Part shown: one piece after another, positions 9,561-64,000 of the stretch | Position numbering within the stretch: position 1 is the stretch's first letter | How the letters are laid out: the number at the start of each line of letters is the position of its first letter | Assembly: GCA_037833965.1 (NCBI GenBank) | Contig: AP031353.1 | Coordinates: 16,928,501 to 16,992,500 of the forward strand | DNA length: 64,000 nt | Reading direction: 5' to 3' | Source of the DNA: Marchantia polymorpha subsp. ruderalis | Taxonomy: Eukaryota; Streptophyta; Marchantiopsida; Marchantiales; Marchantiaceae | Notes under the pieces: generated by a model | Databases searched by the model: none | What the model was told of the DNA's origin: nothing | The model's input: only the letters and a program-made list of their open reading frames with translations | Position numbers and translations under genes: made by a program

Positions 9561-12321
9561 ATGGAAGACTCAGAGTCTTCGAAGACAACACAGGAACTGC
9601 GAATGAGTAGGATTGTTGATCGAATCGATCAGAGTGTTGACAGGAATGTAGAAGGAACAAATCTCGTACCAATGTCAAGCGCTGAACTGGACGATGATGG
9701 GCGTCCTAAACGCACAGGTAGGCCTCAAGAAAGTCCTCTGAATGACATTCGTGAGTGAGTTTTGAAACCAGTGACTGCAAACCATAAGTTTTGACAATTG
9801 CAGTGCCTTTATTCTGATTATCTACTCTGGAGCAGGAACGTTTTGGACGGCATCTGCCCATGCAATAACCGCATGTATAGGATCTGGAGTATTATCTTTG
9901 GCATGGGGAGTCGCTCAGCTTGGCTGGATAGCTGGGCCCTTGGTGAATGTTTCCTTTGCCGTCATTACATACTTCACTTCGGTTCTGCTCGTTGATTCCT
10001 ACCGCTACATGAATCCTGTCTCTGGGAGGCGGCTGTACACATATATGGATACAGTGAAGAGTTATCTGGGTGAGCCTCCTCTGCGGTCTTTGAACGCAAC
10101 AGATGAACATTAAACAGTGGCCACCATCAGATACACCCTGTAACTCTGGCATGCTGTCGCCGATTTCCGATTTCAGGCAGTTTAGCCTAAGTGTGCCCGG
10201 CTTGTTCTGCACATCTTCTATAATGAACAATTATTGTGGTTTTGAATGCCGGGAATCTTGGAGAAGAGAAGAGGAACAAGGTTGTTTTGGCCTTCGAAAC
10301 TATCATGGAAAAGACAAGAAAAAATCATAAAAAGACAGTCTATTTACAGTGAGTTGATGATTACAGGGCGGAAGGACACGTTTGTTTGCGGACTTGTGCA
10401 GTATACCAATCTTTTCGGTATTTGCATTGGTTACACCGTTACCGCCTCAGCCAGTATGGTGTAAGTAGATGTCATATAATGACCCTAAGTGTTGCATCTG
10501 CTTGTACCGATGAACTGAATTTGCTTGAGCTAATAGATCATGAGATATGCTCAAGAGGATACAATACAATGCTTCTACTAATAAGAATGTAGTATCGATG
10601 CAGGGCAATCAAACGGGCCGGCTGTTTTCATGAAAGAGGACGTCATGCAGAATGTCACGTATCAAACAATTTGTACATGGGTATTTTTGGCGCAGCTCAA
10701 ATCTTCTTCTCGCAAATTCCAGATTTTGCTCAGACTTGGTGGCTCTCAGTACTTGCCGCAATCATGTCATTCTCCTACTCAGGCATCGGTCTTGTATTGA
10801 GTCTCATTAAATTCTTCGGTAAGGAGGGAAATGTGTGATAATATGACTAGGATTAACCCATGATTACGCAGTTCGAATAATGTATAGTTATGATGTTTCT
10901 TCGTTATTTGCAAATCGCAGACTCTGTAAACAATGTTAGAATTCTGAGGAAGCTAATTCCTTCTACTATAGATGTTGGACGAAGAAACATTTCAATTGTT
11001 ATTATCACGCTTTGATGGTTGCCTACGTGTTTTCTTTTCCTTTCAAAGATTTTCATCTACTTTGTTCCTCTCGAACTTTGGTGCTTCTTAAGAAAGAAAC
11101 ATGAATGCAGTTTTCCCGGTCGTTTAGGATGAGTTAGATATGTAGACTTTGGTGTGTAAGCAATGCAGTCGATTATGTGGAGGTAGATAATCGGCTTCTT
11201 TCTAGTCCGAAGACAAAAACCTCTGAACGGATTTGAGTTTTGCGACAATATTGCAGATGAAGGACAAGTTAGGGGGACACTTTATGGTTGGCCTATTGGT
11301 AATGGACAGGATGAATACAGTAGAGCTCAGAAAGTATGGAAGACATTGTCGGCAGTAGGCGATATTGCCTTTGCATACAGTTTCATTATAGTACTTCTTA
11401 ACATACAGGTAAAGTAAGAGGTCTAAATCTTTGTGCACATTCCATTTATAATTTTCTTCAAACGAAGTTTTTGTTCTTATTGAATCTTGAATCCAGATTA
11501 GGAACATGCGTCGAAAAACTTTCCCAATTTATCCATGTGCATATGGATGTAATCAGACGTTGTTCTTGATTATCCAGGACACGCTGAAAAGCCCTCCGCC
11601 AGAGAACAAGACCATGAAAAAGGTTGCGCTGGCATCAAACCTTACTTGCAGTATTTTCTACTTGTCCGTTGGTTGTGTGGGCTACGCTGCCTTCGGTAAC
11701 CATGCTCCGGGGAACCTCCTCACAGGCTTCGGGTTTTACGAGCCATATTGGCTCATCGACTTCGCCAATGCATGCATCGTCGTTCATCTTGTGGGAGCTT
11801 ACCAGGTATTTTACTGGCTGATGCACCTCTCTACGAGATTCTGTCAGTCTTGCAAATCCGTTGAATTATTTCTAGCAGCAACTAACGTGTTCGTTTTGTT
11901 GCAGATTTTTGCTCAACCGCTTTTCTCTTTCTTAGAAGGTTTGGTATTGAAAAGATGGCCAAAGAAGACCTTTCTCAACAATACTCGAAGTGTGTCCATA
12001 CGTGTTGTTGGTAGAATCCGACTGAACATTTTCCACCTGGTCTGGAGAACCATCTTCGTTCTGGTCACGACGCTTCTCGCTCTATTATTGCCTTTTTTCA
12101 ACAGCATTATGGGCTTGCTAGGAGCTTTAGCCTTCTTCCCGCTAAGTGTCTATTTCCCCATCCGGATCTATATGAAACGAACCAACTTGCGACATTACAA
12201 ATGTGAGTGGTGGTTTCTATGTACATTAATGGTTATCTGCCTCCTAGTTTCTATCGGTGCTGCAATTGGATCTGTTGCAGAGATCCTTCAAGATACAAGA
12301 CACTACAAACCTTTCAACTGA
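9561..12321 (+). CDS. Amino acid permease, AAP family (AAAP superfamily)
   Basis: Proton-coupled amino acid importer of the plasma membrane. Coding exons: 9561-9717, 9836-10069, 10367-10460, 10604-10818, 11257-11408, 11578-11805, 11905-12321. Lengths sum to 1497 nt, 498 aa plus stop, slightly longer than the usual 480 or so because of a hydrophilic N-terminal tail of about 50 residues. Exon 2 opens with the AAP signature GTFWTASAHAITACIGSGVL and continues LAWGVAQLGWIAGPL. Exons 3-4 carry GYTVTASASMVAIKRAGCFH, exon 6 IQDTLKSPPPENKTMKKV, and the C terminus ends ILQDTRHYKPFN like typical AAPs. About ten hydrophobic segments are visible. The first ATG of the open frame is used. Substrate range cannot be read from sequence. 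Intron 6 is in frame and lacks stops. Confidence 0.95.
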
Positions 12322-16999: not shown

Positions 17000-18215
17000 A
17001 TTATATGAAATAATCATTCATTTCAAACTGAAAGTTGAATAAAATTTAGTTATACACAAATTCGTGTAAAAAATCTCAAAAGAAAACCGCCATATATCAA
17101 TCACCTCTAATCAACAATCACAATGATTTATGACATCAAAACATTGTCAATCAGAGGATAGAAGAGGGCTCAAAGGTTTAAGGTGGTCATCACAACAGTG
17201 TAATGGTTAGCGATGTGTAAATTAAGGGGTACATTTAGTATTTGAACATTCGAGTCGACATGTGACATCTAACTTGATTTTTCGGTACACCAATCACGAT
17301 ATTTAAAAATAATACAACCAATGTTAGAAGACTTCTGCAGATAAACAAAACCGTCGTGATCCATGCTGCGTTAGGCCATCAGAGACAACCTGCGGTGTAG
17401 CTCTACGTCAGGCTGATCGAACTCATCTTCACTACTAGAGCTCGAGACATTCTGCAAGCAGGTTGCGTATTTTGAGGATCAAGGCAGCCAACGTTACTTC
17501 GAAGGGCATATTGCCCAAGAGAATGAGACACCACTTAAACCACCACTTCCGTGGACTCGATGAGCTTCCTCGCGTGTTGGGGATTCTATTCAGTCATTTG
17601 TAAATCTCAGGTGCTCCCAGACTGAAATCACATCTCGACGACGCAGTTTCCACTATCTACATTCCTTGACGTTGATAATAGGAAACAATTTGTACAATCC
17701 GTACGAGGAGTGTCCGGATCGTGGCAATCTGGTCTTGTACAGACAAATATCACTTCAAACTACTACGAGAGCGATGCTTTCTTAAAAGATCTTCAAAAAA
17801 TTTATTTGGATCTCGCCGCATGAAAATGAATGGCAAGGTATGAAAAGTTTTAACCAATTACATGCCGGTACAATTGTCACCTGACTAAGTTCTAAGTATT
17901 ATATTATCGACGTGGAAAATTTTCTTACTAGTGCTTAAGGCTCATTTAATCTATCGTTCCTCTAAGGAATCCAGTTCATGCATTATAGCGGTCGCAATCC
18001 GCGGTCCCACGGAGCTGCCTACCAGTCCAGCCGGACATCGGTTGGGTGCCGAGGTACCGTTCGTACCCGGCAAGCTTCTGCTCTTATCGATCTGTCGCAC
18101 TTCAAATGCAACGAAGAGTTACACGACAGTTCCTGAATAAAATCTGCCTCCATCATCGATGCCGAGGTTCATTTTGGTTCAAGCAATATCCTTCGTGTCT
18201 GCTGAGTCAGTATGT
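17000..18215. repeat. Peroxidase unit A, 3' flank
   Basis: This non-coding stretch is repeated downstream of the second peroxidase (about 25045-26212), and its proximal part lies in reverse orientation after the third (about 40386-40880). Shared landmarks include ACACAAATTCGTGT, CTCTACGTCAGGCTGAT and CAATCTGGTCTTGTACAGAC. It is part of the duplicated unit. No gene seen. Confidence 0.8.
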
Positions 18216-19703
<1,488 letters not shown>

Positions 19704-25044: not shown

Positions 25045-26212
25045 AACAAAAAATTATTTTAAACTCAAAGCTGAAATTAATTTTATTTTACACAAATTCG
25101 TGTCAAAAATTTCAAAAGAAAACTGCCATATAATAATTAGCTCTAATCAGCAATCACAATTATTCATTCTATCAAGAAATTGTCAATCAGAGTATAGCAG
25201 AGGGGTCAAATGCTTACATTGTCAATAATGTAAGATGGTCATATCAACAGCATAATGCTTGGCGATGTGTAATTCAAGGAGTCCATTTAGTGTTTGAATA
25301 TTCCAGTCGACCTGTGACATCTAACTTGATTTTCGGTACACCAATCACAATGTCAAAAACAATACACACAATGTTAAAACACTTCTGCAGATAAACAAAA
25401 CCGTTGTGATCCACAATCCGCCGTGCCATCAGCGAGAGCTTGCGGTATAGCTCTACGTCAGGCTGATGGAACTCATCTTCACTACTAGAGCTCGAGACAT
25501 CCTGCAAGCAGGTTGCGCATTTTCAGGATCAAGGCAGCCAACGTTGCTTCGAAGGCCATATTTCCCAAGAGAGAGAGACACCACTGAAACCACCACTTCC
25601 CTGGGCTCGATGAGCTTCCTCATGTTTTGAGGATTCTTCTCGGTCATTTGTGAATCTCAGGTGCTCCCGGACTGAAATCACATCTTGTCGAGGCAATTTC
25701 CACTGTCTCCATTGCTTGACGTTGATAACAGAACATTATTAGGAGTGTCCGGATCGTGGCAATCTGGTCTTGTACAGACATATATCATACATAGATCGAA
25801 GAAAGATCTTCAAAGATTTTATTTGGATCTCGCCGCATGGAAATGAACGGCAAGGTATGAAGAGTGTTAGTCAATTAATCGTCCGTACAATTGTCACCTA
25901 ACTAAGTGCAAAGTATTATAAAAATTTATCGTACTTATGCTTAAGGCTCATTTAATCTATCGTTCTTTTAAGGAATCCACTCCTTGCAATTTAGCGATCG
26001 CATTCGCCGGTCCCAAGGAGCTGCCTACCAGTCCAGTCAGACATCGGTAGAGTGCCGAGGTACCATTCGTACCCGGCAAGCTTCTGCCCTTATCGATCTG
26101 TCGCACTTCGAATGCAATGAAGAGTTACACGACAGTTCCTGAATAAAATCTGCCTCCATCATCGATGCCGAGGTTCACTTCAGTTTATGCGATACCCTTC
26201 GTATCTCCTGAA
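25045..26212. repeat. Peroxidase unit B, 3' flank
   Basis: Direct copy of about 17000-18215 at an offset near 8 kb, with scattered substitutions and small indels. No gene. Confidence 0.8.
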
Positions 26213-27684
<1,472 letters not shown>

Positions 27685-35509: not shown

Positions 35510-36424
35510 CCAGTTCCAGTCTTGCACATTTTCACCGTCGATGTTCCGAAGTCCTTCAGAAAGCTGTCGAGGGAACTTGGCTGAAATGTTCCCTACCCTG
35601 CAATGGAAAGGGATGCTGATGAGGGCAGCATCTGATAGGAACAGTCAGTCCCCTTTGGCTCTTCACGACCTTGAAATATTCGTTGTCGAATGTGCCGTTT
35701 GTGGCATCCAGTTCTCTCACAAAGGTCTGAGACTCGTCCGAAGGGCAGAGAGTTCTGAGCAAGTTGGCAAAAGTGGTATCGAGTGATGAATCGGTCGTTC
35801 CGGGCATAGCGTTCAAGTCGTACATACGAGGAATCACTCCTGCACAGTGAGCCGATTGTACGCCACCTGAAGAATAAATATGCATGAACTCCCTCTGATC
35901 ATTAGACCGCTCAGAGTTCTGAAAAAGAAGTCTTTTTGAATTGATTTCTTCGATACCAATCCCTTGAAAGATCCACCTTAAATCTGCAAGTTTTATGGAT
36001 ATCCTGCTAAAGTAATAGTTATTGAGCTTGAAGCACCCGAAAGAGTAAGCATATCCTTGGCATTGTTTACTATCAAGTGCCTCAATAATAGTTCCAGCCT
36101 TCTCTAGATCCATATAGTGAGCTTCCTCACGTGACGTCAGAGGCCATGATATGTATATACTTCTAGCACATGTGCTTGTCCTTGATTTTTAAAAGAGAAT
36201 GAAAGTGTCGACCTTCAGTACGACATCACGGGCTGCTAAAGCCAGAATATCCGCGCATGACACTTCACCCGGACATGTCCTTTCAATTGTGGCCTTGACA
36301 ATTGAATTGGCCTTCAGTTGGTTGCGTCATCCTCTGCGAGTTATATGGGAGAGCCAAAGTTTGGTCGTGCAGCTTTCTCTGCCGAATTGGACGCTGATTC
36401 GGGGAGTACTGATGCCGCACAACC
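35510..36424 (-). pseudogene. Peroxidase relic R2 (exons 2, part of 3, and 4)
   Basis: 36424-36213 matches exon 2 but is 212 nt because of a 23-nt insertion, and it has TAA at codon 28. About 36030-36065 keeps the exon-3 end. About 35865-35510 matches exon 4 (VIPRMYDLNAMPGTTD, FANLLRTLCPSDESQTFV, FDNEYFKVVKSQRG) and then shifts frame before the LFPSDAALI equivalent. The SGGHTIG helix is destroyed (about 35860). Non-functional. Confidence 0.88.
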
Positions 36425-38148: not shown

Positions 38149-38772
38149 TAAGCTTTATTTGTAAGGTTGCATGCTCATTCAATTTGGACGGAAGAAATTC
38201 ATATGTATCTCTCCTAGTGATTGTGAGTAGAAAGGACTCGACGCACTCAGATGAGCAGGCAGGGTAGGTAAATTATTGTAGTTTAATCTTGCTCGCTCCT
38301 CGATTCGAGTGTTCCCTCTGTCTAGTATCAAACTTGCACGTGCTTCGGCCCAGATCATCGGAGTTCAGCTTATGATGCTTCACCTGATCTTATATGGTCT
38401 GAACAGGAGGAAGTGATACCCTACTCGACTAGCATGGAGATCTTGTTCTAACGCTTAGATTTTGAGACTTTGCCCGGTTTTGAGAAGAAGTGAGATTTCT
38501 TCTAGATCTGTTCAAGGATATGTTTTGCACATTTCTGGAAGGACTACGTCCGATTATCTACTGCATGCTGCATTATTTGAAAACAGACTATAGGTTTGTA
38601 TTTATTTTAGCTGATGTAAGAAACGTGAAAGTCGCAACCAAGTATAAAATCTCTTACGTGCAAAACCGTCTGCAGAGAGTTTCAAACCGACAAGCTTCCG
38701 ATCCAGCTTTTGAGACGTGAAAACGTGAACGGATTCTAACTAGAATTACTGAAGTCGTCGAGTCGTTCAAAC

Positions 38773-40385
<1,613 letters not shown>

Positions 40386-45904: not shown

Positions 45905-48900
45905 TCAGCCGTTGCCAATTGTAAGTGTTAATTTGATGTTCATGGCTGCCAACTCTGAGGCAAGATATCTGAAAACGTAAGGCATGGCCACCAGCTCAAT
46001 ATCCCGACTTGAATTGCACACTCTACAGATGACTTTGCTCTCTTTACTTGACCCTAATCCCATTGCAAAAGCTGCACTGCTCTTCTGCTGAATTACAGGT
46101 GTGGTAGACAACAGACTTCCACATCGAACACAGATGTCCGCAGTGTGATAGTCTGAGCAAGTATGTAGCCTATCATGCAACAAGTATGCTGCACCATGAG
46201 CAAGTAACGAGTCTCGCTCCATTTCTCCGAAACGAATACCACCACCAAACTTTCGCCCTTTAACAGGCTGTCGTGTCACAGGATTCACAGCACCAGTGGA
46301 TCTCACCTAAGGACAAAATTACGCGATGAACAGGCATTTCGTTATGCATTTGGTAAGGCAACAGACAAAACCAAGCATAACACAGAACATAGATCTATCC
46401 ATTGTAAGATCCCATCTTGAAATAAACAACATGACTCAGTTTGGCAAGAAGTCCAGAACTATTATTCCAAATTGCACGAACTTCTTGAGATAAAAGCCAT
46501 ATGATTTAAGCAAAGCTTCGCGCACCTGATACTTGTCTCCAACCATATGACGAAGTCTTTGATAGTACACACAGCCGATGTAAATTTCACAGGTAAGTTC
46601 TGTGCCCAAGACACCACTATACATGACTTCTGTGCCATGGTAATTGAAACCGTATTCCTTCAACTGCTTTCCATACTTGTCGACAAGAGACTCATCTTTG
46701 TTTTTATGGCTGCTCTTCGAGTCGGCAGCGCATTTTTGAAATGGAGTAGCATTTATAAACTCCCCTTTTAAAATGCCAACCTGAAAAAAGTTGAGCCGCT
46801 CAAAAACCTGACGTATCCTGTTTCCTATAAACAACAAGCACCGGCATTGTTCCTACCATACAAATAAACTTCTATCTCCTAAAAAGTCAGATGATTGATC
46901 ATCGAATAGTACTATAACTTCGTATCTGGAGTTACCTTCGCAGCCATTGATTCCAAGAGCATCCCAATCGTCATACGGGATGGAAAGGCGTGGGGATTGA
47001 TAATAAGATCAGGTCGCATTCCAGTAACAGCTGAAAATGGCATGTCGATATCGGGCCATTGCTGTGAGAGCACACCCTTCTGTCCATGCCGACTACTGAA
47101 CTTGTCTCCAATAACAGGGTTACGACCGTATCGCATCCGAATGCTGACCTGTGAAGGTCCATACCAATTCCGAAGACGAAAAATAAGTACACCAAATTTC
47201 TCCAACAATAAACGGTGGAGATCACAGCTACAATTTACTCATTCAAATAATATTCAGATCCGGACGTATATTTTACCTTCTGCATCGGCTCCTTGGGTCC
47301 TGTTCCGACTGCTGCCACAAAGTCCACAACAGCTCTATCTCCACCCTTTAGCTTGGACATTTTCGCGTTACCAGTAACGGTGTTCAATACACTACAGTAA
47401 GGATTATTCTCCACCAAGGTCTGCATACAGGAAAATAGAGAGATATAGACATGATATTAGCGTTGCAAACCATGATGTGAGTGAAGACCTGCAACAAATC
47501 TGATGGAGAGTATGGTAAGAAAAAAAAAGTCAGTTCCCACTATACCTGCCCAATGTACGGCAGTCCATCGGTGTCGACAAAATTTGAGTTTTGAACGGGT
47601 GGTGCTCCTCTCTTCGGACCACCGGCTGCGTCAGATCTGGCAAACACATTGACAATTCCGTCTCCTTTGCGACGCATACGAGTCAAGTCGATAGTCTCTG
47701 TCTGCAAGAAGCATAATACGTATCGAGTACATTAGACCTTCTTCATAGAAGAATAAAGAGATAATCAAAGGTCAAGATTTACAGCCAAAAAATTTACAAG
47801 CCGATGGAGGAAATAATTGTTCTCCAGACCTGTCGGAGCTGAAAAAACATTAAAGTTGATAAGAGCCACAGTACCTTGTAAATTTGTCCGTGAAACATGC
47901 CACGTTCCACAGCAGATTTGTTCAAAATCATAGCGTCTTCCATATCATATCTGGAAGAATCAACACAACTTGATAAGGCATACTTTAAGGCATTGTACCA
48001 TTACCTACGACAAGGACTAACGATCAGATAATCACTGCCCTAGTAATTTCAAATGAAGATGAGTTCTAAAGAGATTCACCCCGTGTACGCAAGCACTGCA
48101 ACAATAGCATTTGTCCCCGTCGGAAATTGGTCTACATTAAATTTGGCCCAATTCTCCGTCCTGGCAACAGGTGTTTGTGGTGACTGCGCACAAGCAATGA
48201 TCAGTTGGTTAGCAAACTTCATTATTACAGACAGACTACTGAGAACATTCCTTCTCTGCCAAACATGCCTGAGAAAAAGTATCATGAGATCACTGCAACA
48301 GCAAAGGTAAAGGAATGCAAATCCCATGTCATATTGGACAGCATGGAGAGTGTCAAGCAACCGCACTCCCTTCCTTCCAGATGTAATCATTTATTGCAAT
48401 ACTGGAGTAAAAACAATTCACCTGTATACGATATAACTTATTATCGGCCCGAAATTGCAAAGCTTGACATGGAGTTCCCATAGTTTGCTTTCCCATCTGT
48501 ATGCATGAAACGGTTTCTTAAAAATCAGTCAGGATAACCTTCACCCTTACATCAGCCATTGATCCAAAGTGAACGTAATTATCACCACAAAGTCGTTGGA
48601 CCCAGAAAATGTATTCTTTTATTGAATGAATTTGACTATATTCATAGACTGGGCCGCAGTGGATTACCTGGCATTGGTACATATTCCTCGGACTCTGATT
48701 ATGGTCTGACCATGGAGTTAAACTGGCCACAACACTGAGCATGGCCAAGGCATGCGTCTCTTCGTGGGTGGCGTATGATGATATGCCGGTAGTTCCTCCA
48801 TCTGTTCCATCTGGACACTTAATTTCCATGTACGCCTGGCCACAGTTTCAAAAGTTTTAACACAGATTGTTTTGTCATCCTCTCTTACACAATCGACGCG

Positions 48901-51900
48901 TTCCATTGAGCTACGATTGCACCAAAGGACTCTTTCAAGCTTTAAAAGGACAACAACCTCATCGTCTGACAAAGTCAGCCTTCCGACGACGCAGTTAAAC
49001 TTTGGAAAGAAAGAAGGTATTTAATTCTTTACTTCTTTATTCATTTGATTATTTGACTAGATAAGGTAAACAATATGACAGTCGGTATAGAACCTGCATG
49101 TATTGGCTCAACAATCACCCGTCGACCACGAAAACCATATTTGCAGGTGAAGAAACTAGACAAAATTCACCTGCATTTTGAGGAGAAGGGGGCAGCAATT
49201 CACTTACCTGCTCATAAGGACCAATCAGTTCCAGTGCACCCTTGTCTTGAGGACTTAGGCACTTCACGGGCCGCAGCATTCTTCCAGGTGTACTAAACAA
49301 GAAAAGGCCCGGATATGCACCAGCAGATGTACAGGGTACGTATGCCACTTCCAAGTCAGATGGGATCTGCAACAATTTTCAGCGCTGCATTAGGTGCAAG
49401 AACGTGAAGTCTCACATGCAAAAGCATACACTTACGTTCTACCCATTAACCACTGGACTTGACCTCCAAAAGCTTCTAGCTCAAAACCTGTGGAATTTCA
49501 TTATTTTATGAGAAATCACTGCAGTTGACATCGACGTAGTACCAAGAAACATCGTGAATATTTGCGTGACACGTGATCAATCGCAAGGGCTAACCACAGG
49601 GCACAGACCAGGTAGTACAGCCATGGTGGCTCTATCTAAGGTGCACCCTGGTGCAGTGGGCTAGAGGTAAACAACGTGAGCATACTTACATCTGCTATCT
49701 TGGCGACTTTGCAGTGCCGTAAGTGAGCAACCGCAGGAGGAATGTCGAGAGTTCGCATGTGTCCTATGATTCGTCCGTCAAGATGAACAGTTAAAAAGTC
49801 CGGAGGTGCCACCCGGGCCATGCTGAGGACTGACGGGAGCATTCCAACGCTTACCAGCTCAGAAGTAAGGGCCTTCCGAATTTTCAGAGGCTGCCTTACA
49901 AGACCCCTTGCGTCCAGATCGGTTGATATTACTGCAGAAAAAAACTCCAACCATCAGTGCGCGGTTCTTTGCCTCCTGCTCATGCAACTACTGAGTACAG
50001 AGAATGCTGCACAATCTGATATTGGCCTCACGTTTGAGACGTTAATAGAATGTGACTTCAACTTCATCACTTCTAAAATCAAATGTAACATCCTTTTAGA
50101 AACACAGTGAACTGCAGAGATCCTTCCGCTTGAAAATATACGGAGTACTTACAACATGCTGCAGTAAGATGGTTCAATAGTCCACACGGAGATCCATCCG
50201 GGGTGTGAACTGGGCACATGAAACCCCAAGACCTGAGCGGCACAGAACAGATTAAAAAAAGGGATACACCATCATAAAAAAGAGTAAACTGAAAAAGCCT
50301 CCGTCAACAAAAAACTCATAGACCTCATGGCTAATTGGACGTACTCTGGTAACAGCTTACGGACAAGTGTGGTTCGCAGAGTTGCGAAAAAAGCTCCTCG
50401 GTGAACGGAACGGAAGTGAGAAATGTAACGAAGAAAATTCAATTTTTCTGCAACTAGGGTGAATCCGGTTGACTGCATTTCAACAGCAAATTAAACGGAG
50501 GCAGTTAAGTTATATTCAACAATAATCAAGACAAAACACCAGCTGACTAAGTACAGTCAGAGAGGAAGATGTACAACTATGCAGACAAAGGACAATCACT
50601 ACCTGCCTAGTGGCTGCCACTTGTCAAGTTTATTCAAATAGTGAAGCTTGAACAAAAAGCGAGGATAAAGACTAAGCTGAAGAATGAGAGAATAAAGAGT
50701 TAATGAGGCTAGGCAGCAAGAAGGCAACCGAGGAGACAAATCATACCTGTTGTAAATCCAGACCACTCTGCGTTACAAGATTTCCAGTATTGAGGAGATA
50801 TTCGACCTTTTTGCTAACATCTGAGGCAGGGACTTTTTCCAGTATTTTTTGTACCTGGGTGGCTACAACAAGAAATCTCAGATAATTAGCAACAGCGAGA
50901 TCCGAACACACTGGAGAGCAATACCCAACGGGCATATGGGCAATTTAGCAAGCCAAGAGCAGAAAATGACGTACAATCCTGTAGATTGAAGGCGGGTTTG
51001 TCTTCAATCTCCTTTACGAGCAGCGCCTTGACTCTGTAAAGCCATTCCTGCATCCTCTCCTACACGTGCAGAAGTGATCCTCTCAGTGATCTCAAACTTC
51101 GCAGCACGACACTGAGCAAAAACGTGTAACTAAAATATTTTAAACAACCTGGTAGAATAAATTGAAATGCTGGCACACATAACAAGACTAGACAATCGAG
51201 TCTGTGTCAGATATGTACACTCGGCTTCTTCAGAAAAAATCAGGCCAGTAGACTGGAATTCTTACCTTCACAAATATAGTAAGAAGATGTCCAGGAAGTA
51301 AAATTTCATGATGCTGTAACGCATCTGCATTATCTGGAGAGGCAAGTCCATCTGCCAGTGCAAAAAGTTTGTGCAACATAAATCTGAAATTGTTTTTTCA
51401 GAGAAAAGGAGTAAAGTAAGTACATACCCAGCTCACAGAATTTGAATGCTTTCAAAAACCTAGACTATAATATGCTAAGAAATATTGGAAATATGAATAC
51501 ATCAGCAGTCGAGCACATCGAGCGTTATGAAACCAGCCGAGGTAACGAAAAAGAAATCTGAAAAAGGAAACCACGACATCTTGGAAAGTCTAGACCTTCG
51601 AACCTCAAATTCCCTTCGCAGTGTCTAAAGAAACGAGGCACCAACCGGTGGGCATGTGAAGCAGAATCTAACAAGGGAGTAATCGAGGGAACAACTCACA
51701 TCAACATATTGAACTTGTCCCGAGGATTGTCCAGGTTGACCAGTATGTAGTCTTCCAAAACCTTCTCACCCACCTGCGTGCAATAGAGTTTCCCAAAAAG
51801 TAAAACGATAGTTTACAAACGATCCTTTGATGACTGAACTATAGGCAAGTTGGCCTTGGCATATGAGCTCGTTCGTTTGTAAGGGAAACTTATAATCCTC

Positions 51901-54900
51901 ACCTTGGCGGAAGAGTAGCTAGCAGGAACGTCAAGTAGATGCTTAAATCGTTCTCCTGTTTCACCACAAGTAGTATAGAGCAGACGTTAGCGCCCCGACT
52001 AAGTGCTTTGACGTCATTTTAGAAATTTATCTAGCTCAAACATTTGTCATACGCCAACAATAGTAACGACATGTGCTGTCCCAGAACAGTTAACTCTGTG
52101 ACAACATGTTGTATTATACCGACCGATGTATTGAAGGCACTGTATGCGTGTGAAAAGGTTGAGCCGCTGGACATCTTCCAGAATGATCCTTGCTCTTTGA
52201 CTCACAAACTGAGAGCCCACAACTCCTTTGGTGCTCTTGTCATAACCGGATTGCACAGAAATCAGCTGCTCGTAAATCTCTCGGTCACTTGTATCAACAA
52301 GGGCCTGTGAAAGTAAAAAGGTTTGTTAAACATCAATATTTCCACGTGTCCTTGATCCCAGAAGAGATTCAGCAGAGGAACGTAAGACGAAATCACGAGT
52401 AGAAAGAAGTAACATGTACTCGATTGGAAATAACCCGTGAGCAACCGCAAAGGGCTCAACACGCGAGAAGATCGGAGAGCACAGGCCCGGTGGGTACAAC
52501 GAAAAGGGGCTCTATCTAACGCATAGCCTGATGCACTATATTGTTTTGTATTGCATGTTTTAAATGCACAAATTGTTGTGTAGAAAGGAAGGTGTATTAG
52601 TATAAACACCGCAGTATTAAAAAACTTACGCTTCGTCGGACCATGTGTCTACATTGAGGCACGAAAAGAGGCAGACTTGATATCGCTCATACGTGAACTC
52701 CATACGTAATAAAGAAGACCACAAGAGAGACAGTACCAATAGATGCAAGAAACAATAGTGTGCAGCGACTTACTTTTATAATCAACCCTACGGGTATTAA
52801 GAACTCCTGCTTTCGCAACCTGCAAGAATTCAACACCACATATCATATAATTTCCTAGCAGAAATAGGACGGTACTGTGCTTAAATACTGTCAGGCGTTC
52901 GAGGTTTGAAAGACAGGAAAGTTGTAGAACTTACGAAAATCCCAGGTTAGAACCTCCCGTGTTCAAGTAATACATTCGCAATGTAACCGCACTCTGATCA
53001 TGTTTCACACATCTGCATAACAAGGATTGAGGAGCGGCGATCAGCAGCAATACTATTCAAGATAACACAACACTGTCTGTTGTGATTATTTCGGCGCCTC
53101 ATATTGGCCATAGGTAAGACATTAGATCCTCTCAGGTCTTTAAAACGGCCAAACCTATATCTTCACTGAAGCTTCAGTTTCTAGGAAATCTCTCTGCTGC
53201 AGGTCATCAAATACTAAAACAATTCGGAGCTACATAACTGGAGTTCGATACGAGAGTTAACGTTCGAGAAAACGCGTTCCGAACTCACATGACAACTGCT
53301 GTATGACCCCAATGACACGATGACGGTAGGATTTCAATAAAAACCTCCGTGGGAAGTATATTGAGCAAAGCTCACCACTAACAGGCGCTACGATTGGTGG
53401 AAGTGGAGTCCAAACCTTATCATGACAGCCTTGTCAGAATAGGCACTTCCTCTATTCTTGAAGGTTGCTCTCTTCACTCCCACCACCTGAATCACAGGAA
53501 ACCACACGAACTTAAATTCAGGCATTTGAAAATATGGAACAATCTAGGTACAGTGTTATGCACAAAACTTCACGTTACATTCGATTTTACAAAAGAGAGC
53601 TGTACATTCTTGTCGTCAGAACCTTTTTTTACTACAGCATAAAAGTCAGTATACACACCAAGTTACGCTTTGGAATGATGAGAAGTCGAATAATTCGCTC
53701 TATACCATTGCATATGAAATATCTGCACAGTCCGGATGGTTTCAAATCATATAAGTTAAACGAATAAGCTCCATCCCACTGACATTGATGAGACGGAGTG
53801 TTTTTTGAGATAGTAAAATTGTTTACAATGCTTCATGTTAAGTTTCTAAACCGTGATTCGTTAGTAGATCCTCTTGGAGAAAGTTATCTTTCTAGCCAGG
53901 ATAATAGTTTTATTTGCACATGCGAGAATTTATTCTACCTTACACCACGTACAGAAGTCACAAGTTTACAGAAAAAATATGTTCCAAATCAGAGTAACAA
54001 TACCAACCCTCCCATCTCCATCGCTTCTTCCTTGTTCGCAACCATTTTCCGCCCGTCCAGACCACGCAAGTGACAGAGGCTTGACTGTGCAACCAAAACA
54101 GGCAGGATTTCTTATATAAGAACCATCTATATCCCTAGATTGACGGTCAGATTCAACACAAGTCTCATATATTGAGCACCCTCAAACGCGAACTTCGACA
54201 TCCGAATCCTCATACGATGCACATGACACATCTTGACATATATGTAGTCGACGAGGTTGTGAAGGTAGAAGAAAGCATAACGTTCCATACGACAGACCGC
54301 CTCCTCGATATATGTGTAGATTAGTCTTAAACTAGATGGAACGAGTCAAGAGATCGTACCTTGACCATGATCGGCATGCGGCCAAATGACATACTGTTCC
54401 GTACAACATTTCCACTTGCATACTGAAGACATAAATCTGCCGTGAGACTTCCCCTGTAGCTTAATCCTCCCATTCGGCACTGCAAATACACCCACATCCG
54501 TTCAGCTGTTTTCTCATCCACCTCACCCATCTCCATGAATGTAGAAACTATATCGCACGATGTTTCTGGCATATAGAGTCTATAGTGTAACAAAACCGAA
54601 GAATGTGCAATGCAGTTCCCGTTCACAGTAGTCCAGAAGCGACGGAGGACGAGGGCTGAAAAAGACACTTTTTCCGCAGATGGCTAATTTCGAATTAGAA
54701 GTAACTGGAGAAAATCATTCACAGGTCAAAGCAGAACATCCCTAGACCTTGCGAATCTATGCAGAACACAGAACTCTCTCCAAAGTATCTCTGTTTTGCC
54801 ATTCCTGGAGAGAATCCACAAGGTCCCGTAACAGAGTAAATCCCCGCGGTCTTGATTACACGATAGACCGTGAGACACATGGGTGGCTGCCTGTTTACGC

Positions 54901-55650
54901 ATAATCATACTCCACAGAGAGTGGACACCAGGGATGCCAGCTTCGATAAAATCTCACCTCCGTGGGGAGCAGACGTTGATCCAAGGAAAGCGCTCCATCC
55001 TTTTGATCCTTCATGGGACGGTTGACTACGGGCTTATCTAGCCACAGTGAGGACAGTCAAGGAATCCCAGATATCCAAATTCGCATGTTTTCAAGAGGAC
55101 ATATAGTCTGGAAATTTAATTTTGTAAACCTTCACTGACCTCCAAATGCGTAACACGAAATCATTGCAGACCGACGACATCTAAAGCTAAACGGAGCGTG
55201 CTGAGAAAATCCACGACAAAAGAGAACCAAAACATTCGTGCGAGTACAGGTTTGAAAGAAGTCAAAAATCCACACGGTCGACTTACAGAGCTGATCGACA
55301 CTCAGAGGTCATTCACAATTGGATGATGAAAGAAAGTTCAAATTGTAAATTTCGGTAGCTGAGTCAACATTAATTAGATACAAAATGTACGAAACGGGCT
55401 GGTGTATGAGTGAGTGTATGCAAGCGTGACAATTAAGCCGCATTAAGAGGATATTGCGAAGGTTGACATTAGAAACTGGGTGTACCACTTCCACTGATTG
55501 CATATTCTGCACTGCCGATTGCAGGCCTCGGTTTACAAAGTAATCGAACGAATCAATGTGAGGCCCCATCAAATCCAGCAGCTGCTCTGGAGCCACTACC
55601 TCCGGGCCCCCTGATCCCATTCTAGCTGCGTTCATTTTAGCCTTCCCCAT
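45905..55650 (-). CDS. NRPA2: DNA-directed RNA polymerase I second-largest subunit (RPA2 type)
   Basis: Catalytic-core subunit that, with the largest subunit, makes pre-rRNA in the nucleolus. 27 coding exons resolved, 3570 nt, 1189 aa, the usual length. Exons from the start: 55650-55455, 55046-54958, 54479-54360, 54084-54008, 53722-53659, 53486-53416, 53012-52935, 52819-52774, 52304-52124, 51955-51903, 51773-51700, 51383-51266, 51059-50975, 50862-50747, 50472-50345, 50232-50153, 49931-49690, 49366-49208, 48835-48668, 48496-48422, 48183-48080, 47950-47875, 47701-47546, 47420-47277, 47148-46936, 46780-46526, 46306-45905. All phases agree. Pol I-type motifs: [67 protein letters not shown] (from 914), [33 protein letters not shown]-terminal zinc ribbon C1115, C1118, C1150, C1153. 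Start chosen at MGKAKMN, the first ATG after an in-frame stop. Intron 1 is AT-AC. Confidence 0.97.
49590..49670. repeat. Intronic repeat shared by two NRPA2 introns (copy 1)
   Basis: About 90 bp with GGCACAGACC, GGTGGCTCTATCTAA and related words, similar in order to about 52440-52535 in another intron of the same gene. Unclassified. Confidence 0.5.
52440..52535. repeat. Intronic repeat shared by two NRPA2 introns (copy 2)
   Basis: AGCACAGGCC, GGGGCTCTATCTAACGCA and the preceding GTGAGCAACCGCAAAGGGCT match the copy near 49590 in the same orientation. Possible SINE-like fragment, not proven. Confidence 0.5.
55047..55454 (-). other. Candidate U12-type AT-AC intron (NRPA2 intron 1)
   Basis: In transcript sense the intron starts ATATCCTC (55454 downward) and ends TTCCTTGACTGTCCTCAC. 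The branch-site match TTCCTTGAC at 55064-55056 places the branch adenosine 10 nt before the 3' splice site. This splice joins LR and M-WLDKPVV in frame, where plant Pol I subunits have I-WLENP. No GT-AG alternative restores both frame and the WLDKP motif. Confidence 0.85.
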
Positions 55651-58439: not shown

Positions 58440-61400
58440 TTAGTATGTGTCGTCTGGGGAGCTTTTTCTCGGTGATGACCCCGTAGATGTACTCGTGTTA
58501 CGAGTTTCAGCTATTTCTGACATCTCTGCTCGTATTTCTCCTTCAGAGAGACTTTGAATCAAACTATCCTTTTCGACCGGCTTTGATTTCGCCTTCATCT
58601 GTTGGGAAACAATTCTGCTCATTTCTCCTGGTTCTGACACATCGTCTCTGACTACATCATGGGTGTAACGAAAGTTGCGATGGGCAAATGCAGCACTCAA
58701 ATCAGCTTGACCACATTCACCTTCTGAACGCAGGCCCCCGGCTTCAACTTCACCTGAATGTAAAGATCCAGCTTTGATTAGGTTCCTTCATAGCCAAGTA
58801 CCACTCACGCTATTTCTCATATAGTGTGAAGCGCGCGCGCCTTCAACGACATGCAAAACATTTCCTGCCAATTGTTGCTACAGGTAGATGTCAAGCGCCT
58901 TTTCGCCAAAATTCACCTCGACGACTAGCCTCTTGACTCGCGAAACGAAACGAAAATACAAAATCACTTTTGTATGATCCTCAAAATCAGTACGTGTACA
59001 AAAATATGTGTACTTAAATATGATTTCATAAATATGGCTCGCACATATTAGGGTACTGTTACTCCTTACACAAATTCACATCACCATCATCCTCCATCCC
59101 ATACCATAAAGTTCATTCTTGACATTACATCTTGTGAGTTGCACTGAACGCATCTGGACCCACTGAGACTGGAGTTTACCTTCCGAAAACGGTATGCCAT
59201 GATTTTTGACAACCTTAGGCCACCTCGTCGCAAATCTCTTGACATGCGCTTCCAACGGATATCTCACACCATCAGCCTGCCTTTCAGGTTCTGGAGATGA
59301 GGCTTCAATTTCACCCGGAGACTGAGTTCTTGTTTTCGTCAACGGGAAACGACGTACTGGTCCGGTCGAAACCCGGTCCATCTGTTCCAGTCCTTCATCA
59401 CTCAGTCTGGAACATACAGAAAAGTTCGACGAGCCAGAACCATCGTACGAATCTGCCAGCTCGGCACTTCCGGCGTAATCATAAGATACGTAAGGTCTGA
59501 TCTCGACATCCTTTCTTGTACCTGCGGAGAGGACTCAAACTTTAGTAATTTCGAGGCTTAACACACCTCAGGTAATGCTATCTAAGCGGTATACTGGAGT
59601 AACACCTGAAGAAAAGAAGAGAAACTTACTTAATCATCACCTAGAATTGTGAAAACACCCCGTGACATGGAACTAGACTTGTAGAGAGGTAACCGCGTAA
59701 CTCTCAATAACATGCAAGACACACCGCAGTGTTCCCGTTACTGCGCAAGGGTTCGGGAGTTCGTAGCGCTAGTAATGTCCAAATGAACAAGAAATTTGCA
59801 AGAGCCTCGGATTTCCAAGTCTTAGAAGTAGAGTACCATTCAGGAGCTTGGGATTTCATGTTCACATACCACTTATCCCTTCCGCTGAGACAGTGCATAG
59901 CTAGCTACTGTAGCGTTATCGATGATTAGATGCTAGAAGTGCTATGTGGATGTCTGCTGGTCTAGCATTAGTTCCTTCGCTGAATTAAAACTCTTAGTAC
60001 CCTAAATACATGACTTGTTGGGTTCTAGATGCATTTCAACCCATTTCACTAGATGCATTTGAACACAGCATATCAGCATGATCAGATAAAAGACTGAAGG
60101 TAAGAACGAAATCTTACTTGTAGATGTTGAAGACAATGACCCAGGTACAAGCTCAGCACTGTCATATGAAAATACAATAATCAACTCACAGGGCAGAGTA
60201 TAAACTTAAGGAAGATGGTTTGCGACATCCACTTTTTCGACCAAAGCATAAGAACATTCATAACTTGGCTTAGTGGTACAGAAGACTTAACCATTAAACT
60301 TCTCGATGTCCGTTATGCTTACCTTCTATTCTGATTCGAGATACCGGGCATGTGAGTGTGGAGGCTAGACTCCTTTTCGTCCTTCTCGGTTAGAGGATCT
60401 TGCAATGAAACTGCAATTTCCTCGGCATCCAGCTTTTGTTCAGTCTGGCGATATGTTTGATCTCCTTTTGGATCCATTGCATCGTCTGTATTGTCTGCTG
60501 AGAACGACGCTGCCTGGCGGTTCTGGCTCATACGATGACGAGCTAAAGCTGAAGCAACCCGTGCTTCATGCTCAGGAGAAGAAATTGGGGTACTAGGTGT
60601 TGCGGGCGATGGAAAGGGTGAATCAGAAGATAAAGAACTTGAACTCCTACTGTCTAACACAATTTTGGTAGCAACATCTGGATTAAATAAATGACGTTCC
60701 ACCTTTTCAAGGGAATTGATATCACGGGTAGCTTGGAGGTCCTCCTCAGCAGCAGTTGTCGTCGCAACAGAGCGCAGGCCTTGTGGAATTTTTTGGAATG
60801 GTGTGGGAATTTGCATGGAATGAAATTGAGGGTAGCTGTCTGGCTGTGGATAAATGGGGTACGTTGAATAAGGTGGAAACATTGGGCGACCGTCAGGTAG
60901 GCAGAAAAATGGAACAACGTACACAGGGTTGAGAGCTTGTGCGATAGACAAGTCGTTGGTTTGTACACCGGTTGAACTTCTCTCATCTACATATGAGGCA
61001 GTTTTCTTTAGTTGTGGGGGTGCGCTAGCAAATGCTAAGCTCGACAGACCGGGAAACTGACCAGTTTCTCTCTCGTCAATTGACGAGATGTGAGAGGGGA
61101 AGGAAGAGGGTTGAACGTCTGCTGATGCTGGTGACTGCAGCATCACAGTTGACACGTCATTACAAGCTTTTGGTAGGGAAGTCATCGAAGAATTTCGAGA
61201 TAACTTATTTTCGATATCTCCTTCGACCTTTCCTTCCTCTTCATCATCAACACCCAGATACTCGGGCCAGTCCTCATCATCTACGCAGGACACCGACCGA
61301 CTCTTTTTCTCTGCTAAGAAAGTACTGTCACTCCAGGCTCCACCAGATGACGTAGCTGAATCACTAGATTGCTGAGTTGTGGGTGATTGTTTCAAGTCAG

Positions 61401-64000
61401 CTTGCTGGTTTCTAGGTGACTGTCTCAACTCGTCAACTATTTCCAGCACAGACGCCTCTTCCCTGCGGTCAACCTGAACGCATTGCGGACTTCTGCACAT
61501 TGCGTTGAAAGTTTCAGATATTAGGCCAGACTTTTTTAGGGATATCCCGAGTTTTCAACTGAATAGAGAGGTTGAGAAATAATAGTATCTTTTAATAGTC
61601 TATTAAAAAAAATTTGAGATTGTACACATACAACCTTGAAGCGTTAAGAAATACCCTGTTAAGGAAACGTTCTTCCTTCATAACAGATTGCTTGTCAAAA
61701 GTGTCAGTATGTGATGTAATAAAGTGGACAGTTTCACACTGAAAATGGGACCTAAATCTTGAGCCACACGACTATGAACGTATGCATTGAAGCTCAAGAC
61801 TGAGCAACACTGAAGTCTACCGCTGGAGGATTAATATATGTATATCAATCAGAATAGGAAAATCGTGATACCTATGAGCTGCTGCAGATGATGACATATC
61901 CTTGAGAGGAGCAAGGACAGATTTCGAATTCTTCACCAGATCATCTCTCAAAACAGTTTTCAACACAAGTTCTAATAATGCCAGTTCTAACTCTTCACTC
62001 TCTGTTATCCTGTCTTCCGCAGATGGAGATGACTGTTTCGTGCCTTCCCATGAAGAGGTCATCTTCGGAGACTTCCGTTTGAAAGGGTCTAGGTTCTCAA
62101 CAACTTCAGAACCAGTAACAGATGTTGCACCTTCATGCCTTTTCTCAAGGTTGTGGGTTTCCAATCTACTTCCATCGGTTCCCTCCCTGTACTCAAAGAC
62201 AACATCTGTAGACGAATCTGCAGGTTCTAAAAGGAAGCCTGTTAGTTCCTGACGTTGGAGATTGATATCATAAGTTTTGGACATATTGTTTTTGTCCTGC
62301 ACTTCGATATTCTTACGATTCTCCTTAACAATATCGCCTTGAATCTTAATCTTCGTCCTTGTCTGCATCTCTTCTCTGTCTGCAGATGATACTGGATGGC
62401 CGGGTTGATGAATATGACCACTCAGTAAACCCGTGCAGTCTCCACCAGAAGTGTCCTGAGGAGCTCTTTTATTCATTTCTTGTAGTCTCTCTCTAATTAA
62501 TGTAAGAGAACTGAATTCTTTTGGAACTCCCACCTCTGCACTTTGAACACTCCATGAATGAAGCGAAGCTCGATCTGAAGAGCTCCGAATTTCAGCGCCT
62601 TTCAGAATGGTTGTACACGAATCTGGCATTTCTAAGCCTTCCTTTCCGTCGCAAACTGTGTCCAAAAATTCGAAGCCTCCACTAACGTTCAGCCAGTTTT
62701 CTACAGAATATCTCATACCTTTGTTTAATGTGTGAACCCCTCTGTCAGAATCCCTCCCCACTGGACTAGGCTTCCAACTTCCTCTATTTAACACGGCGTC
62801 CTGCTCACTCTTGCCTCCTGTAGTCGATTTCGGTAATTTTGCTAATGCACTAGCTCTCGGACCGTCCTTTCTTGTAAATTTGCAGGGCATGGGAGAGTAC
62901 CGTGGTTCCCCAACTTCCACCACCCCCAATTTTCGGGGTCCTCTCTGACTATCTTCTTTTCCCTGTTTGACATTGAGTAACCTTGCTCTGTCCTTGCCTT
63001 TTAAAGATGCAAGATTAGTTGAGTAACCACCCAACCTGTCAAGAGCTCTCATTTGTTTTCTCGTTGCATCTTGCAGCGATCTCGGCTTAACCTTTTGATA
63101 ATGTTTCGATTTACCACCTGACACCTTGTTTAGCATTGTAAGCAATAGATCATGAGCTTTCTTTTGCCCCACGAACTTTCTCCCCAGTTCTGTCTTCTCC
63201 TTTGACGTCTTCAGACGACCATCATATCGACCTACTTGTTCCTGGCTTCCCCAGTGATTCTCCAAACAATAGGGCCTTTCGTCAGTTGGTCTGAACCGGC
63301 CCTTATTCTTCGCAAGCTCCCTTGTTTTGCTACCCCGGTTCTTCTCTTGATCTTCTGCATTTACAGAGTTTGTAACTCTCCACGATATTGACCCATCTTT
63401 CTTTTGCTTAAGATGTGTACTAGTACACATTTTCTGTGTTCCGGTCTCATCAGGATCAGTATTCAGTTCTTCGTTGTGTCCGCTCACAGAAGTTCTTCGC
63501 TCTGAGTGTCTTGCATGTTTTGATGTGTTACTTTCTGTAAGAAGTGCTCCACATGATACGAGAAATGCCTTCATTCTTTCAGACCAGCTCTGCTTCTCTG
63601 AAGCCCTCTCCGCAGTCTTGAGATGAAAGGCTTTGCCCTTGGTGGCTTTACTCCCAACTCTGACCAGTTGAGCTCTCAAAACGCTACTTCTTTGATTGTG
63701 AATGTCATCACTAGATGGAGTCAGTACCCACTTACAGAAATCGGAGCTGAAGTCAGATTTCATCGTACTGTCCCCTTCTCCACGTTTCGCTTCATTCAGA
63801 TAGTTCTGTACTACCTGACGGCCCTGCAGATTTTGTTTCGAGGCCATCTCTTTTCCTCTCTTCGTTCCAACTGACGCATGAATTGTCACATCATTTGGCT
63901 TCCGCAAAGCATGAAGAGCTACATTTTTTATGCCACTCATTTCGAGAAGGGTCGAATCACTCATCAGATAGTCGCTCTTTTTACCCTTGCTGCTGGCAAC
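58440..64000 (-). CDS. Unrecognised large, probably disordered protein (5' end outside window)
   Basis: Five exons: at least 64000-61872, then 61492-60323, 60158-60118, 59521-59180, 58753-58440. All are GT/AG with consistent phases, giving 1331 visible residues. The frame is still open at the right edge, so the ATG at 63964 (MSDSTLLEMSG) need not be the start. The large exon is Ser-, Lys- and Arg-rich and ends with a helix-like ELELALLELVLKTVLRDD. The second exon has a Pro/Tyr-rich stretch (FFCLPDGRPMFPPYSTYPIY) and Ser/Pro runs. The tail contains SLSEGEIRAEMSEI. No catalytic motif or membrane segment is seen. I do not recognise the family. A scaffold or regulatory role would be a guess. Confidence 0.75.

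Follow-up and report, generated by a model that had tools for sequence, protein, structure and literature searches.

In the Marchantia polymorpha gene that encodes RPA2/NRPA2, the second-largest RNA polymerase I subunit, the first intron is, in our view and with high confidence, a genuine and old U12-type AT-AC intron, predicted to occupy the same codon and phase in land-plant RPA2 genes from liverworts at least as far as flowering plants and to be removed constitutively by the minor spliceosome. The proposal draws on the sequence of one 64,000 nucleotide stretch of the Marchantia genome (hereafter the window), on the rest of that genome and on related proteins, from which we infer both the actual splicing of the intron in this species and its dependence on U12. 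Introns of this kind are already known and are rare; with traces of it in flowering plants, RPA2 intron 1 seems to be a real and long-inherited member of the group and not an oddity.

Results

The RPA2 gene and its surroundings

The gene was delineated by mapping the public Marchantia polymorpha RPA2 protein (P0001, 1189 aa), the closest public protein among the best 120 of 3194 matches, onto the window codon by codon. The two agree at 1188 of 1189 residues, the single difference being V547L, and the mapping yields 26 introns, of which intron 1 is AT-AC and the other 25 are GT-AG, with a TGA stop codon at 45907-45905 on the minus strand (Table 1). P0001 has Pfam Rpb2 domains 1, 2, 3, 6 and 7 together with the Pol I-specific domain Rpa2_4 (PF06883), the domain content that identifies RPA2, and the top three matches in the PDB to a 385-residue N-terminal draft (7ob9, 7aoc and 4c2m) are all Pol I second subunits. 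The first-pass annotation of this DNA had named the gene as the RNA polymerase I second subunit and described its remaining 25 introns as GT-AG; the domains and the mapping of P0001 support the name, and the mapping confirms the count. When P0001 was compared with the genome itself, the window was the only locus matched by its residues 1-66, among the 49 matches listed and with 39 of 77 candidates scored.

Table 1. Positions of the RPA2 gene, of the elements of its first intron and of the U6atac locus discussed in the text; positions are those of the window except for U6atac, for which genome, contig and contig positions are given.
Feature	Position	Strand	Remarks
RPA2/NRPA2, RNA polymerase I second-largest subunit gene, ATG to TGA	45905..55650	minus	27 coding exons, 26 introns; from P0001 mapping and Pfam
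Coding exon 1	55455..55650	minus	codons 1-65 and first base of codon 66
AT-AC intron 1	55047..55454	minus	408 nt; follows codon 65 in phase 1
5' splice site ATATCCTC	55447..55454	minus	
Branch site TTCCTTGAC	55056..55064	minus	branch A at 55057; contains stop TGA in exon 2 frame
3' terminal AC	55047..55048	minus	10 nt past branch A
Exon 2	54958..55046	minus	89 nt; starts TG TGG CTA GAT AAG, completing Met66, then Trp-Leu-Asp-Lys
First in-frame stop on intron 1 retention	55309..55311	minus	after 113 codons
U6atac L005 (= L002)	G000:C5:12818140-12818264	minus	sole copy with promoter-like upstream sequence; further copies L006-L017

Elsewhere in the genome, contig C3 carries eleven incomplete copies of RPA2 (L043-L053); they contain introns, cover the 3' part of the gene and match window positions 47441-45825 with DNA identities of about 89-94%. 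Some of the aligned pieces contain stops, and several of the copies have longer flanking stretches in common with one another. The 5' part of RPA2 with the AT-AC intron has no match in the eleven 10-kb stretches around these copies.

The window also holds several class III peroxidase-like copies, at 18169-19193, 26175-26990, 35556-36326 (minus) and 38740-40385 (plus); the segment 39918-40382 has a peroxidase Pfam match and the other copies are peroxidase-like by the look of their reading frames. An amino acid transporter fragment (Pfam Aa_trans) is found at 11494-12318 on the plus strand, and long open frames of 727, 411 and 152 aa at 59076-64000 on the minus strand perhaps belong to one gene, the 727- and 411-aa frames matching no Pfam family at 1e-3.

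Splice signals of intron 1

U12-type introns have the 5' splice-site consensus ATATCCTT (RTATCCTT) and the branch-site consensus TTCCTTRAC. The 5' site of intron 1, ATATCCTC, agrees with the former at 7 of 8 letters, the exception being a C rather than a T at +8, and the branch site, TTCCTTGAC, agrees with the latter at 9 of 9; the branch A lies 10 nt from the 3' end, the short distance characteristic of U12-type introns. The first-pass annotation had placed an AT-AC intron here, and its sequence and coordinates stand as given. It had also called the signals textbook, which holds for the branch site and for the position of the terminal AC but not for the +8 position of the 5' site.

One donor and acceptor pair rebuilds P0001 within the search made. 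GT-AG or GC-AG joins that lead in frame into exon 2, starting from exon 1 or from its continuation into the intron, number 72, and Trp67 is lost in every one; the closest six resume at codon 69, so that Leu68 is lost too. One reason for the loss of Trp67 is a stop, in the frame of exon 2, within the branch site. The original observation that only the AT-AC splice joins the N-terminal exon to WLDKPVV is thus upheld. Retention of the intron would stop the protein after 113 codons, and failure to splice would therefore remove the functional product rather than alter it.

To gauge chance we defined a joint signature consisting of ATATCCTY, TTCCTTRAC 50-3000 nt downstream, and an AC ending 8-20 nt past the branch A. 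It occurs once in the 64 kb, both strands included, and is found in 5 of 100 first-order Markov resamples of the window (mean 0.06), so that the U12 motifs by themselves are just mildly unusual in a sequence of this length. Chance is nevertheless negligible, about 1e-8 by our own estimate, because the motifs coincide with a splice that is fixed independently by the protein.

Traces of the intron in other plants

The proteins used for the junction scans were the best 120 of the 3194 matches; five more (P0121-P0125) were added later, for the read-through scan only, and are left out of the junction-anomaly counts, which refer to 94 plus 26 entries. The 26, which we call transcript-only, have lgn as their sole source, and the other 94 include a few possibly transcript-derived entries. 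The lgn source appears to consist of RNA assemblies, as its contigs are about 3.6-4.3 kb each and carry a whole reading frame.

Read past the end of exon 1, the window encodes Asn-Ile-Leu. Asn, Asp or His followed by Ile-Leu stands at RPA2 junction 1 in 6 of 125 proteins (three from Musa and those from Flemingia, Xanthoceras and Erythroxylum) and in none of the 26 transcript-only entries; throughout 120 of the scanned proteins N, D, H or Y followed by I-L occupies 51 of 140,913 positions, the six read-through entries included. A plausible explanation is that these entries are mis-annotated proteins in which x|ATATCCTN, at the same site and in the same phase as in the window, has been read through, which would give the residues seen. 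It is because of these traces at the same junction in flowering plants that intron 1 looks ancient. The comparison of intron position with other plants that had been recommended as a check gives protein-level traces, at the same site and phase, in four flowering-plant genera. In Sphagnum, Taxus, Vitis and Senna there are entries whose sequence is altered ahead of junction 1 and which read Leu-Trp at it. This fits the read-through of an intron ending in C, though as weaker evidence, because Leu-Trp is also present in intact entries, P0004, P0005 and P0015 among them.

Junction 1 is anomalous in 14 of the 94 other entries and in 0 of the 26 transcript-only entries, while the other 25 junctions of RPA2 are anomalous in 0-4 of the 94 and 0-1 of the 26. 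The rule used left unflagged one read-through entry (P0101) and two with Leu-Trp (P0016 and P0076). The N-terminus of RPA2 is poorly conserved, and divergence or truncation may account for some of the anomalies at junction 1; the anomaly of P0104 is probably plain divergence, P0012, P0013, P0035 and P0089 are anomalous at junction 2 too, and three of the 14 come from one genus. The Flemingia read-through stretch, used as a query, returned 16 proteins with no further read-through entry among them, and the N-terminal region of P0096, used as a query toward algae and animals, returned just P0096 and one nematode protein.

Three public legume models, P0122 and P0123 from Glycine max and P0124 from Arachis hypogaea, avoid junction 1. 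In P0122 and P0124 an earlier site in exon 1 is joined directly to exon 3 sequence, and in P0123 unrelated residues lie between. These are likely to be annotation failures at the AT-AC intron.

Minor spliceosome snRNAs of the genome

A search of the genome (241.5 Mb, nine contigs) at Rfam cut-offs, in which match counts are lower bounds, gave at least one match for U12 (L018, 101.8 bits), at least one for U11 (L019, 60.0 bits) and at least 13 for U6atac (L005, 94.6 bits). U4atac gave no match in this Rfam search, which does not imply that it is absent. The U12 RNA retains GAGUAAGGAA, which pairs with the branch site of intron 1 at -9.3 kcal/mol, and the U11 RNA retains AAAAGGG, which pairs with five of the six positions +4 to +9 of the 5' site. 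At -4.8 kcal/mol the pairing of U11 with this 5' site is weaker than the -8.5 kcal/mol reached with a consensus AT site.

U12 is preceded by a USE-like AACCCATAAG (-68) and by ATATAT (-28), U11 by AACCATAA (-70) and TTATAT (-31), and U6atac L005 by a USE-like AACCATAAG and a TATA-like box at -31. All three carry AACC(C)ATAA(G) at -65 to -70 together with a TATA-like box, rich in A and T, at -28 to -31, a combination that we put forward as a possible upstream element of snRNA genes in liverworts. The USE-like motif is present in none of the other 12 U6atac copies within 120 bases upstream.

An altered U6atac

The U6atac copies differ from the Rfam consensus in the pairing segment, where GCCG replaces AAGG in 12 of the 13 copies found, including the promoter-like L005, so that these 12 read GAGCCGAG where the consensus reads GAAAGGAG. 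The thirteenth copy, L017, is diverged and reads GAACCAAG, and the AAGG box is missing there too. An AAGG box able to pair with +5 to +8 is thus found in 0 of 13 copies. This bears on the splicing machinery of the species and leaves the motif class of the intron untouched. When up to three mismatches were allowed, the canonical segment matched nine places in the genome, all of them GAGCCGAG, against one hit for the reversed control. A run of T follows the 3' end directly in L005 and a few bases on in L006, and an intact 3' end is missing in 8 of the 13 copies. As the USE-like motif is missing from the 12 copies besides L005, and an intact 3' end from 8 of the 13, the 12 look like copies of the RNA, and the U6atac RNA itself probably carried the GCCG change.

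The AAGG segment of U6atac pairs with the 5' splice site of U12 introns, and by the textbook account these introns are activated when U6atac pairs with +4 to +8. In that scheme the GCCG form breaks the pairs at +6 and +7 of the intron 1 5' site and keeps those at +4, +5, +8 and +9, giving 4 of 6 pairs compared with 5 of 6 for the Rfam-consensus U6atac. The C at +8 of intron 1 makes a full C-G pair with G12 of U6atac, where the consensus T would wobble. This is at most a small gain, because a consensus 5' site, with its wobble at +8, also reaches 4 of 6 with the Marchantia U6atac. A shifted pairing was also modelled, in which nt 14-29 of the Marchantia U6atac bind the 5' site and the exon end at -7.9 kcal/mol (nt 12-29 of the Rfam consensus, -8.6 kcal/mol). 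That U6atac segment is used in the U12/U6atac helix, for which reason we do not rely on the shifted pairing.

Search for other U12 introns

In the whole genome ATATCCTN followed by a branch site 45-75 nt on gives 9 hits, against 4 for a reversed control, and inspection by eye of the translated sequence at those 9 places revealed no convincing exons. A 5' site matching the altered U6atac (TATCGGY) gives 7 hits against 6 for the control; in this weak test there is no sign that splice sites followed U6atac. A scan for U12 motifs in six places encoding an E2F domain (L037-L042, of which L037-L039 were also read in translation) revealed no U12 intron.

Discussion

We propose that U11 would find the 5' site ATATCCTC and U12 would pair with the branch site TTCCTTGAC, after which U6atac would take over from U11 and the exons would be joined by way of the AT-AC termini, A|TG then forming Met66. 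Removal of intron 1 would be a constitutive step inherited from the land-plant ancestor, and the intron itself would mostly have been carried along by inheritance, influencing RPA2 output modestly at most.

Two alternatives question the class of the intron or its existence. Introns other than the U12 type can also have AT-AC ends (PMC3584512), and intron 1 could in principle be removed by the major spliceosome; we consider this highly improbable, as the 5' site, the branch site and the branch-to-end distance all fit the U12 motifs, and the U12 and U11 RNAs of the same genome keep matching pairing segments. It is scarcely credible that the cell in fact uses a GT-AG or GC-AG splice and that the AT-AC junction is an effect of annotation. 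In-frame alternatives of this kind do exist, and some public legume models skirt junction 1 by other joins, but every one of the 72 costs Trp67 and more, and the transcript-only entries are uniformly regular at this junction.

A different question, raised by the first-pass annotation with regard to ribosome production, is whether slow and limiting minor splicing sets the level of RPA2 mRNA, and hence of Pol I. The review PMC3584512 reports that in vitro splicing of U12 introns was slower by three- to fivefold and that they have been suggested to be rate-limiting, and PMC3728624 describes U6atac as unstable in HeLa cells and limiting for many minor-intron genes; retention of intron 1 leads to an early stop, and the intron has seemingly been kept since liverworts and flowering plants separated. 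However, PMC3584512 also records a further tenfold drop in U4atac without apparent effect on endogenous U12 splicing, conservation of U12 intron positions is general (PMC2426677), and neutral processes are suggested for much of minor intron evolution in the survey PMC10639083. We therefore regard such a regulatory bottleneck as plausible but unlikely and favour the inherited, constitutively spliced intron.

More tentatively, and with rather less than even confidence, we suggest that the minor spliceosome of this liverwort runs on a rewritten U6atac, AT-AC introns such as RPA2 intron 1 being activated through a weakened or shifted U6atac helix, while AAAAGGG in U11 and ATATCC in the intron are retained. 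A canonical U6atac gene missing from the assembly would explain the GCCG oddity away. If the rewritten U6atac is real, it would be a natural exception to the rule of activation by pairing at +4 to +8, and if the observation on U6atac holds, Marchantia offers a natural test of the need of minor introns for that pairing.

The intron adds a well-supported and apparently very old AT-AC intron to a core gene of ribosome production, and it offers a reason for the broken public RPA2 models at junction 1 in several plant genomes. We found no report of a U12 intron in the gene for RPA2 or the Pol I second subunit in the open-licence literature, although automatic U12 databases may well list it. None of the open-licence papers among the matches listed deals by title with this intron or with liverwort U6atac, and the co-mentions of U6atac and Marchantia are, by title, incidental; in their text, PMC4892727 and PMC2846911 do not contain the word 'polymerase', and PMC10639083 contains neither 'liverwort' nor 'RNA polymerase'.

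Set beside known U12-type AT-AC introns, RPA2 intron 1 shares the 5' ATATCC, the branch site TTCCTTRAC, the short branch-to-end distance and the AC end, and like them it is alone among many GT-AG introns, in the 5' part of its gene and in phase 1. Its place in the gene is not special, because a 5' position is common among U12 introns (PMC2426677). It differs in the C at +8 and in a host U6atac lacking the consensus AAGG, which would be the partner of +5 to +8. The NRPA2 genes of Musa, Flemingia, Xanthoceras and Erythroxylum, known from proteins alone, appear to share the junction and phase by alignment, with ATATCCTN read-through traces, whereas the base before the intron would be A, G or C, judging from Asn, Asp and His, and the junction residue differs. 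Compared with Rfam U6atac (RF00619), L005 is a full-length match with a 3' T-run and USE-like and TATA-like boxes upstream, but it has GAGCCGAGAG in place of GAAAGGAGAG.
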